From Methylotuvimicrobium buryatense 5G (GTDB lineage: Bacteria; Pseudomonadota; Gammaproteobacteria; Methylococcales; Methylomonadaceae), in assembly GCF_000341735.1 (NCBI RefSeq), contig NZ_KB455575.1:1807648-1871647 (forward strand): a DNA stretch of 64,000 bases. Reading direction: 5' to 3'. The position numbers and the translations under genes are program-made. Under the pieces are notes generated by a model. It saw only the letters and a program-made list of their open reading frames with translations. It searched no databases and had not been told where the DNA came from. How positions within the stretch are numbered: the stretch's first letter is position 1; every line of letters begins with the position of its first letter. This document shows, piece by piece, positions 3,564 through 59,165 of the stretch.

Positions 3564-3597
3564 CCATAGTGGCTTTCCGGCTACCACGACCTCCGTC

Positions 3598-3660
3598 AAT
3601 GCCATTAAGTTAAGCCGTTCGTGGTGAGCTTGTCGAACCATGGACGGCTTAACTTATCGA
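3598..3660. repeat. Half copy of family F element
   Basis: It begins with TGCCATTAAGTTAAG, the family F terminus, followed by an inverted-repeat hairpin (GCCGTTCGTGGTGAGC ... ACCATGGACGGC) and ends at AACTTATCGA. It matches, in reverse complement, the second half of the complete element at 39489-39622. It lies directly before the efflux membrane fusion gene, and its sequence accounts for the spurious N-terminal extension of that reading frame. Confidence 0.75.
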
Positions 3661-3680
3661 CTCGGTATTTTAAACCTCAC

Positions 3681-7840: not shown

Positions 7841-8162
7841 GCCGACATTTTTTGCGAAAATGTTTTGTTGATCTTGCCTACGGGTTATACTTCCGAAAGT
7901 GATTTTTCGACAGTTAAAAATCAGGCTCAGAATAGCCCGGATTGAAGACTGCCGAAGACACGGACGGAGGTATGTCAAAACTCAAAGCTAGATTAATGAA
8001 ACTGAATACGGTAAGACACTAACATTCATTGAGACAGGCCAAAACATATAAAAACTAAATTCTTATCTAGAAGCCGTCAAAAGAAAATGGATGCCGTTAT
8101 GGAAACGTTTAGAATATGGCCGAAAATAACTTCCCGACTTCCATCGTTCCCACGCTCTGCGT

Positions 8163-8364
8163 CACTGCCATTAAGTTAAGGGAAACCCGTCATTCCGCCA
8201 TGGATTCACTCCGGGCTATCCTGCCCGGAGCCCTTCGAGTAAATGCAAATTCGTTCCATACGGATTTGTGGCGGAATCCAGTGCCATGGATGGCAGGCTT
8301 TTGAGGCACATTTGAGCATGAATGCCGGAATTACTTACTCTGTGACGGCTAACTTATACCAGTG
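8163..8364. repeat. Family F-terminus element with family E interior, nested in a GTTCCCACGC palindrome
   Basis: It begins CACTGCCATTAAGTTAAG and ends with the degenerate complement (GGCTAACTTATACCAGTG). Inside are CATTCCGCCATGGATTC and GGCGGAATCCAGTGCC arms of family E. Immediately outside are GTTCCCACGCTCTGCG on the left and CGCACTGCGTGGGAAC on the right, which together are the two arms of a family G palindrome, so this element appears to have inserted into it. The rest of the 663-bp gap between the RND pump and the transketolase gene shows no recognisable feature beyond a probable promoter region. Confidence 0.75.
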
Positions 8365-8504
8365 ACGCACTGCGTGGGAACCATTTGGGAAAATATTTTT
8401 TTACCTTATCTTTTAGATAGTACCTCGACCATCCGATTAATTGTCTTTGTAAAGAGAGAGCTTTCAAAGCACGTTTATTAACCAAACCGAAAAGAAGAAT
8501 AACT

Positions 8505-31432: not shown

Positions 31433-32101
31433 TTATTTATCGCGAAAGCCCCCTACGTCCTTGCACCTCATTGCCATTAAGTTAAGATCCAGGTGTTTTA
31501 ATCCCTTGATTTTCCTAAACGTCAAATTGATCCGAGGCGATTTCAACAGCCTGGTTTTTGGGATGGCATGACGCCAATGATGCTGAAGCGAGCCTACCAT
31601 GATCAATAAATCCCCATGCCCCAACACCAAGTCTAGCTTCTCCTTGGATTTGTTATGAACCAGCCTGAACAACCGTTCATCCCCCAAACTCAACGAAGCA
31701 ATCGCAGGATTCATACCCAGTTCTTTTTCGTTATCGGCATGGTAACCCATCGAGTCCTGTCCGCTTCGATACAGATTTGCCAGTACGCTATTGAAAGTAA
31801 ATGCAAAGTCCGATTGGATTCGTTGCCGTATCGCATTCAGTTCGGCCGTCCAAGACAATGGCTCATGCTTGACGCCGGAATAGAAATAAACCGCTTCAGG
31901 ATCGCCGTACCAGCATGTCAAACGCGGCACGTTAACCGGCTTACCAAACATCCATATCGACTCTTCCTGCCAAGACAGCCTATCGAGCAATATAGCAAAC
32001 AGTTTGTTCGCTTCATCTGACGAGTAATATTGCTTGAGCAAAAAAACCTCGCCATCCCGAGGCGCTAAATTGTTGAGGGCGGATGAATCGAATGACGGCA
32101 T
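31433..32101 (-). CDS. AlkB-like 2-oxoglutarate/Fe(II) dioxygenase
   Basis: The 222 residues fit the AlkB family (ALKBH2/3-like, as in many bacteria). Iron ligands are the His and Asp of YHADNEKELG and the His in HHWRHAIPK. The 2-oxoglutarate Arg lies in RINLTFR, and the substrate lid has NVPRLTCWYGD. It probably repairs alkylated bases by oxidative demethylation. The last 17 residues (LNLMAMRCKDVGGFRDK) are read from the family F terminus at 31469-31486 and the DNA beyond it, so the original C terminus has been replaced. The conserved fold ends before this tail, so activity may be retained. Confidence 0.88.
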   Translation of the reverse strand: MPSFDSSALNNLAPRDGEVFLLKQYYSSDEANKLFAILLDRLSWQEESIWMFGKPVNVPRLTCWYGDPEAVYFYSGVKHEPLSWTAELNAIRQRIQSDFAFTFNSVLANLYRSGQDSMGYHADNEKELGMNPAIASLSLGDERLFRLVHNKSKEKLDLVLGHGDLLIMVGSLQHHWRHAIPKTRLLKSPRINLTFRKIKGLKHLDLNLMAMRCKDVGGFRDK

Positions 32102-39199: not shown

Positions 39200-39480
39200 C
39201 CCACGGTCCTTCGTAGGATTCCATACCTTCGCTGCCGAGGCAAGATCGGTATGCATTCCCTCGCAGAGTCTGGGAACGAGTGACACCCGCCATTCCGGCA
39301 TGGGCTGGCGGAATCCGGTGCTATGGAAGACATGCTTTTCTGGTTCCCACGGTCCTTCGCTCATCGTTATACATAAGTCAAAAATTACCCTTCCTATCGT
39401 TCCCACGCTCCGGCGTGGGAATGAAGACCGAGACGCTCTAGCGTCTCGCACCGCTGGAGAGGTACTCAGGCGTTCCCTCG
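39200..39480. repeat. Cluster of family G/E fragments
   Basis: This stretch contains CTTCGCTGCCGAGGCAAGATC and a CGGTATGCATTCCCTCGC block (also at 40275-40325), a family E fragment (CATTCCGGCATGGGCTGGCGG), and the palindrome GTTCCCACGCTCCGGCGTGGGAA. Boundaries between the pieces are not certain. The 1.23-kb gap 39131-40363 contains no gene, only stacked repeats. Confidence 0.6.
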
Positions 39481-39488
39481 CAGAGCCT

Positions 39489-39622
39489 CACTGCCATTAA
39501 GTTAAGGATTTTTCCGTTCGCCCTGAGCCTGTCGAAGGGTGAATGGAAAAATCCTGGGTCGATAAGTTAAGCCGTCCATGGTTCGACAGGCTCACCACGA
39601 ACGGCTTAACTTAATGGAAGTG
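39489..39622. mobile_element. Complete family F MITE, 134 bp
   Basis: Termini CACTGCCATTAAGTTAAG and CTTAACTTAATGGAAGTG are inverted with one mismatch in 18. Two hairpins lie inside: CCGTTCGCCCTGAGCC ... GGGTGAATGG, and GCCGTCCATGGTTCGAC ... CACGAACGGC. The 8-bp CGCAGAGC occurs on both sides (39479-39486 and 39624-39631), as if the element had inserted into a family G palindrome and duplicated part of it. Confidence 0.82.
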
Positions 39623-39677
39623 ACGCAGAGCGTGGGAACGATAATTGCCGGGGGACTGAATATTTGCCTCGTCGTTA

Positions 39678-53362: not shown

Positions 53363-53495
53363 CACTGCCATTAAGTTAAGGGCATTTCGTCATTCCGACA
53401 TGGACTGGCGGAATCCAGTGCCATGGATGGCAGGCTTTTGAAGCACATTAGAGCCTGAATGCCAACATTACTTATTCTGTGACGGCTTAACTTAA
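53363..53495. repeat. Family F-terminus element with family E interior
   Basis: Starts CACTGCCATTAAGTTAAG and ends GACGGCTTAACTTAA, with the E-type arms (CATTCCGACATGGACTGG, GGCGGAATCCAGTGCC) inside. To its left is ATTCCCACGCCGGAGCGT, a family G arm, so it too appears inserted in a palindrome. It abuts a family I element at 53496. Confidence 0.72.
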
Positions 53496-59085: not shown

Positions 59086-59165
59086 CACTGCCATTAAGTT
59101 AAGGATTTTTCCGTTCGCCCTGAGCCTGTCGAAGGGTGAATGGAAAAATCCTGGGTCGATAAGTT
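59086..59165. repeat. Half copy of family F element inside a REP palindrome
   Basis: CACTGCCATTAAGTTAAG, hairpin, and GGGTCGATAAGTT match the first half of the 39489-39622 element. Left of it is CCCAAACTCCAGCTT (a broken REP arm) and right is CAGCTGTTTCCCAAGC, so the half-element sits inside the REP array next to the RAYT gene. Confidence 0.75.

Follow-up and report, generated by a model that had tools for sequence, protein, structure and literature searches.

A MITE family of Methylotuvimicrobium inserts preferentially into palindromic repeats, probably by way of a symmetric target motif

RESULTS

Analysis of a 64,000-nucleotide stretch of DNA from Methylotuvimicrobium buryatense 5G (the window) and of related genomes showed that family F, a MITE with ends CACTGCCATTAAGTTAAG, has a strong, though not exclusive, preference for insertion into palindromes; the same preference is seen in the transposase-bearing partner IS of a relative, genome G111. 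A symmetric sequence motif probably accounts for most of this preference, while the structure of the target may make a minor contribution. We consider it likely that an IS4-family transposase reads a dyad-symmetric motif and that palindromic repeats matching this motif are hit repeatedly.

Copies of family F in the window

The window contains one complete element (Table 1), whose opposite end is the terminus at 39605–39622. A search of the window for the terminus, allowing up to three mismatches, produced seven matches (six left termini and one right) against 0.04 expected in shuffled sequences. The terminus is exact at the four positions named by the original prediction (8163, 39489, 53363 and 59086) and carries one mismatch at two others (3597 and 31469). 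The claim that four of six copies sit in palindromes agreed with our reading as well: four left flanks lie in a palindrome arm, with the 53363 and 59086 copies being judged on the left flank only, because their right ends are lost. The string CGCAGAGC, said to be duplicated on both sides of the 39489 copy, turned out to be the central part of an 11-bp target duplication whose two copies differ at two positions.

Table 1. Family F copies in the window, with the features flanking the complete copy
Feature	Position	Strand	Remarks
Complete 134-bp MITE (family F)	39489..39622	.	Both 18-bp termini, two internal hairpins
Left copy of 11-bp target duplication, TCGCAGAGCCT	39478..39488	+	9/11 identical to right copy
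Right copy of 11-bp target duplication, ACGCAGAGCGT	39623..39633	+	9/11 identical to left copy
Left arm GTTCCC of palindrome interrupted by the 39489 copy	39472..39477	+	
Right arm GGGAAC of palindrome interrupted by the 39489 copy	39634..39639	+	
Two-ended copy, degenerate right terminus	8163..8364	+	Inside GTTCCC-ACGCTCTGCGT / ACGCACTGCGT-GGGAAC
Copy with right end lost	53363..53495	+	Left flank is half of ATTCCCACGCCGGAGCGT palindrome; end read directly
Copy truncated on right side	59086..59165	+	Left flank TTTCCCAAACTCCAGCTT; end read directly
Left-end remnant with one hairpin, terminus CAATGCC	3597..3661	+	End read directly
Isolated left terminus CATTGCC	31469..31486	+	

The reconstructed target of the 39489 copy is GTTCCC-N11-GGGAAC, with the insertion point at its centre. 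Both flanks of the 8163 copy lie in a palindrome of the GTTCCC..GGGAAC kind (arms 8143–8167 and 8360–8384), and its duplications, 8152–8162 and 8365–8375, are 10/11 identical when read directly. The 59086 copy adjoins an intact GTTTCCCAAGCT/AGCTTGGGAAAC palindrome; no palindrome was seen in the flank of the 31469 terminus.

The interior of the MITE folds well as single-stranded DNA (z -7.7). The copies at 39489–39622 and 3597–3661 contain hairpins with CCGTTCG..CGAACGG-type stems and CTGAGCCTGTCGAAGG-like loops; here, therefore, palindromes are nested in palindromes. Rfam models at gathering thresholds had no match in the window.

Family F in the genome and the genus

Family F elements are short and multicopy, with terminal inverted repeats and target duplications; given the length of 134 bp, we take the family to be non-coding. 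The genome of the window (G000; 5,067,278 bases, two contigs) carries 161 exact occurrences of the 13-base inner terminus CCATTAAGTTAAG (none of the reversed control). The 18-mer terminus was present in all six genomes of the genus, G000 included, and in 23 of the 61 genomes searched.

Copies were counted in 2,565,739 bases of the G000 chromosome: a contiguous 2.0 Mb, taken regardless of copies, and other stretches situated around listed copies and hence selected for exact termini. These bases held 200 termini (up to three mismatches), with 77 two-ended copies and 46 single ends; one of the 77, a 1460-bp pair, is of another kind than family F. This pair (C1:2961631–2963090) was considered as an autonomous copy and rejected, its longest stop-to-stop frame being 166 aa and, by eye, not transposase-like.

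Copy sizes are mostly 134 or 140–143 bp, the commonest being 134 bp (27 copies) and 142 bp (17 copies). In the 133–134-bp class, 29 of 30 copies were aligned, with a mean pairwise identity of 98.6%, and 13 match the consensus exactly; in the 140–143-bp class, 27 of 28 were aligned, with 88.5%. The remaining copy of each class was omitted because its orientation could not be set. Clear target duplications flank 52 of the 77 two-ended copies: 32 of 11 bp, 19 of 12 bp and one of 10 bp. Several of the 25 copies without a clear duplication have hybrid flanks. At C1:142269, 1517979, 1649803 and 2506392 we saw two-ended copies whose flanks are halves of different palindrome variants; these copies look as if they had recombined.

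Insertion into palindromes

Each reconstructed target received a stem score for inverted repeats lying no more than 4 bp from the centre of the duplication. A stem score of at least 7 was reached at 15 of the 52 G000 sites versus 2.6% of 20,000 sampled intergenic positions (about 11-fold enrichment, binomial tail 2e-12), and a score of at least 9 at 10 of the 52 versus 0.9% (about 21-fold, 5e-11). The comparison of palindromes with intergenic DNA that the original prediction had called for thus came out in favour of a preference. The preference has limits, with scores of at least 5 at 27 sites and below 5 at the other 25. Several palindrome families are used as targets. A plain regex count of palindrome arms in the flanks picked out 21 of the 49 insertions of the 2.0-Mb segment; made without a control, it serves here as secondary evidence only. 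No pair of outer flanks (300–800 bp away) among the 51 G000 sites compared had a match over 300 bp; the insertion sites are therefore separate loci.

Joined flanks of three G000 sites, out of ten prepared, were searched against the six genomes of the genus. Among the matches listed, site 1880901 (ATTCCC-N11-GGGAAC) is unbroken across the junction in G003, G004 and G005 (94–97%), and an insertion is present there in G002. For site 3381178, the matches listed are unbroken in G004 and G005 (86–90%) and, over 236 bases across the junction, in G002; the site is occupied in G003 and G001. For site 850855, the matches listed include one in G005 unbroken across the junction (query 97–401, 88%), an occupied site in G002, and G003 and G004 with one side only. 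Two of these three loci are TTCCC/TTTCC..GGGAA palindromes. Unoccupied sites in relatives, to which the original prediction had also pointed, were thus found unbroken at all three loci tested, and at these loci they show insertion into pre-existing sites directly.

Two side observations belong here. The insertion is shared between G000 (C1:850655–851199) and G002 (C2:2186631–2187175), with flanks 100% identical for ∼200 bases on each side. Near G000 C1 1880800 (query positions about 892–1035) lies a composite palindromic repeat of ∼145 bp, made of two TTCCCAYGC palindromes around GACGCTCTAGCGTC and ACCGCTGGAGCGGT; it accounts for most of the matches listed, and the whole query with this repeat has 69–77 matches in each of five near-complete genus genomes.

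A symmetric motif in the target

Targets with duplications numbered 74 (52 of G000 and 22 of relatives); they were collapsed into 22 clusters of 11-bp and 15 clusters of 12-bp sites, with two 10-bp sites left out. Symmetrized frequencies lean to A-S-S-C...G-S-S-T between the edges CCY and RGG, and a central TA stands at 80% in the 12-bp clusters. Among the 37 clusters, seven have both edges, 11 have one and 19 have neither; in the intergenic control both edges occur at 0.1% of positions and one edge at 5.0%.

Matrices tested with the site's own cluster left out placed 26 of 32 11-bp sites in the top 0.6% of intergenic positions (the half-palindrome 1202995, half of a REP-A palindrome, being kept in training) and 12 of 19 12-bp sites in the top 1.2%. 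We also trained a matrix on the 13 non-palindromic 11-bp clusters (stem score <5), with half-palindrome 1202995 removed. This matrix put all 21 palindromic 11-bp targets (15 of G000 and six of relatives) in the top 1%, at a median of 0.008%; as these targets form five clusters, with 16 targets in one of them, they are not 21 independent proofs. All 13 unoccupied REP-A dyads likewise reached the top 1%, as against only 9 of the 52 other centred stems in intergenic DNA. With 14 clusters, 1202995 kept, the figures were unchanged. The non-palindromic clusters themselves, each left out in turn, reached the top 1% in eight of 13 cases.

The 12-bp matrix is weaker: 8 of 15 palindromic targets fell in the top 1% and 13 in the top 5%, and of the 16 unoccupied REP-A dyads seven reached the top 1%. 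Two perfect CCCACGG..CCGTGGG 12-bp targets scored poorly with their own cluster left out. At equal matrix score palindromes were still in excess: in the 11-bp top bin (1202995 again kept in training) they made up 8 of 17 cases, the background share being 15.7% of 51 positions, and in the 12-bp top bin three of four, against 5.7% of 35. Complementarity of the arms within a site slightly exceeded that of permuted arms, the observed values being reached by 442 and 226 of 5000 permutations.

At the six sites of the TCACCTA..TAGGTGA family, the centre of the duplication lies 2.5–3 bp off the dyad; half-palindrome 1935573 was also hit, with a perfect duplication. TTCCC..GGGAA-like arms were found by the arm regex at 26 of the 74 sites, and at 25 of the 26 the length of the duplication equals the arm spacing (13 with 11 bp, 12 with 12 bp); the one exception is ambiguous because of a C-run.

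Transposase-bearing partners

The exact ends of family F flank IS4-family transposase genes in relatives (locus L217, genomes G111 and G032, and others). On first impression the ends also resemble, as we presume, those of IS4 itself. The partner is a DDE transposase of the IS4 family with a duplication of about one helix turn. PF01609 is over its cut-off in partner transposases, NF033592 gives 171.2, 161 and 187.8 bits for L234, L236 and L239, respectively (cut-off 115), and the Y(2)R(3)E(6)K motif reads YYLRWGIETFYGLLK in L234, with equivalents in L233, L235 and L236. Partner ISs are 1395–1437 bp long. Matches to the partner clade were found in eight of 151 genomes, G004 included, and among them are relatives in other genera.

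In the genus, the family search found L217 of G004 (Methylomicrobium sp. wino1), a gene of the IS4 family enclosed by exact ends in an element of 1395 bp. The gene has an in-frame TAG and a G in place of the catalytic E; read through the stop, it is over the NF033592 cut-off, the 279-aa piece alone scoring 94.8, below 115. Half a palindrome flanks the element on each side, and the two halves come from different palindromes. With the 279-aa query, G000 gave no match to a transposase of the partner clade at E <= 1e-30.

Fourteen of the 15 matches in G111 are full-length 1404-bp elements with exact ends. Thirteen of them have perfect duplications of 11–12 bp (L251 has none), and ten sit at the dyad of TTCCC..GGGAA palindromes; as to other copies, L246 lies in GCACCCCAAGGGGGGTGC, and L234 and L255 have no evident palindrome at the site. 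A strict pattern, TTCCCAYGCN(2-5)GCRTGGGAA, describes 12 further palindromes of the same genome that are intact and unoccupied; since nine of the ten occupied palindromes would fit this pattern, the occupied fraction is about 9 of 21. In G032, G133 and G109 the partners are inserted in different palindromes: CCCCGGCTTACCGGG, CCCCCGGCAGAGCCGGGGG and ATTCCC-ACGGAGACCGT-GGGAAC.

Another IS4-family element of G000 (NF033592), L042, has TAATGCCACTAAGTTAAG ends similar to those of the MITE (differing at 3 of 18 positions on the left and 4 of 18 on the right) and an 11-bp duplication, CCCCCAACCCC; it is 22% identical to the G111 transposase (alignment A1). TAATGCC-ended L042 would have been the obvious partner and was rejected, the exact ends having been found on another clade. 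L195, a TAATGCC-ended IS4-family copy at G000 C1:4274694–4276314, is situated at the centre of palindrome AAAGGGGTCAGACCCCTTTT, so the related IS may share the palindrome habit.

DISCUSSION

The original prediction had proposed targeting of hairpin-forming or REP sequences. The preference for palindromic, REP-like sites is real; recognition of the hairpin as such did not gain support: palindromes fit a dyad-symmetric motif that can be learned from non-palindromic targets. If extruded hairpins or cruciforms were what the transposase recognizes, one would readily understand the enrichment of stems at insertion points, the use of several palindrome families, the two palindromic 12-bp targets with poor sequence score, the excess of palindromes that persists in the top matrix bins and the small residual complementarity within sites. 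Such recognition is difficult to reconcile, however, with the prediction of palindromic 11-bp targets from non-palindromic ones alone, by a score that few other centred stems share, as well as with the off-dyad insertions in the TCACCTA family, the perfect duplication at half-palindrome 1935573 and the low stem scores (below 5) at 25 of 52 sites. We regard a structural mode of recognition as unlikely.

Two explanations that do without target choice were weighed as well. Palindrome arms and MITE could form one composite repeat spreading as a unit, the association being mere hitch-hiking; the flanks of several copies do belong to the ∼145-bp repeat unit, of which there are many per genome. Against such a unit speak the direct duplications at 74 sites (37 target clusters and the two 10-bp sites), the lack of matches over 300 bp between outer flanks of the 51 G000 sites compared, the unbroken unoccupied sites at the same three loci in relatives, and the transposase-bearing copies, which target the same kind of site; we find hitch-hiking highly improbable. 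We give equally little credence to a bias that is intergenic only, whereby insertions in genes would have been lost and palindromes would merely be common between genes. It is true that 24 of the 26 sites with duplications in the 2.0-Mb segment lie outside ORFs, as crudely called, and that palindromic repeats are frequent between genes; yet the control positions were themselves intergenic and from the same segment, the enrichment at both stem thresholds remained, and the insertion position within the palindrome is fixed.

Observed directly were the ends, the duplications, the genome-wide enrichment, the empty sites at three loci, the transposase-bearing copies with identical ends, the motif and the agreement of duplication length with arm spacing. 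MITEs would be moved by a cut-and-paste DDE transposase recognizing the 18-bp ends, such chemistry being assumed by analogy with the IS4 family. We infer that the transposase itself selects the target and that it reads duplex rather than extruded DNA. A symmetric transposase complex would read a dyad-symmetric motif in the duplex, with edges of approximately CCY and RGG and, between them, a spacer of the kind ASGCWWWGCST (11 bp) or ASSCCTAGGSST (12 bp); cuts made at the edges of the motif would lead to duplication of the spacer. Abundant palindromic repeats (TTCCCAYGC..GCRTGGGAA and others) would represent near-perfect versions of the motif and for this reason be hit repeatedly, the insertion falling at the centre of the palindrome when the motif does and beside it when the motif is displaced.

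Our inference as to which transposase moved the uniform 134-bp copies of G000 takes two possible forms, a lost partner or cross-mobilization by an element of the L042 type. One could further speculate, with considerable doubt, about a variable gauge: each subunit would read one CCY/RGG half-site and the distance between half-sites (11 or 12 bp) would set the length of the duplication, making palindromes dedicated landing sites that spare genes.

Landing in palindromes has seldom been described for this known transposon family; here it is found in a methane-eating genus with partners in neighbouring genera. The dozens of separate insertions with duplications, the empty sites and a partner IS of which one genome has 14 full-length copies make up a clean natural data set. 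Family F, presumably non-coding, also illustrates how such elements can reach high copy numbers with most insertions falling between genes. In the open-licence PMC literature we found no earlier account of such insertions in this genus, nor of REPs occupied by an IS4-family MITE; within this literature the MITE set, the use of several palindrome families, the 11/12-bp duplications following arm spacing and the test of sequence versus structure appear to be new, none having been found in print.

Comparison with known systems

Targeting of REPs by an IS4-family element is already known. Passages of Tobes and Pareja (2006; PMC1525189) describe ISRm22 of Sinorhizobium meliloti as inserted in REP sequences at the axis of palindromy in 10 of 10 cases, with direct repeats of six bp, in the REPs of one host; copies with imperfect repeats were interpreted there as recombinants. 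Family F resembles ISRm22 in its IS4-family affiliation and in insertion at the axis of REP-like palindromes; unlike ISRm22 as described in these passages, it has 11/12-bp duplications, uses several palindrome families, is present as many-copy MITEs and is not exclusive in its choice of site. No MITE is mentioned in the passages on ISRm22.

For the IS4 and IS4Sa subgroups, the relevant passages of De Palmenaer (2008; PMC2266710) give a DDE triad with Y(2)R(3)E(6)K, a single ORF and duplications of about one turn, and they note for some IS4-subgroup elements a 'spectacular apparent insertion specificity' in the target arms. Compared with the signatures given in that paper, the ends of family F and its partner fit that of IS4Sa (CA------T) fully and that of IS4 (-AATR--------WTW) except for position 3. 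The 11–12-bp duplications match IS4 (10–13) and not IS4Sa (8–10), while the partner lengths, 1395–1437 bp, straddle the lower bound of IS4 (1400–1650) and are inside the IS4Sa range (1150–1750) reported there.

Other REP-targeting ISs named in passages of PMC1525189 are ISPsy8, ISPa11, ISPpu9, ISPpu10 and ISRm19, along with IS1397, ISKpn1 and IS621. All of these have, like family F, a fixed point of insertion in repeated palindromes, and their transposases are other than that of the family F partner; according to the same passages, the first five belong, unlike family F, to the IS3 or IS110 families, and the repeat of ISPsy8 is three bp. To the old question of whether REP-targeting elements read a sequence or a hairpin, family F gives an answer that leans to a symmetric sequence motif.
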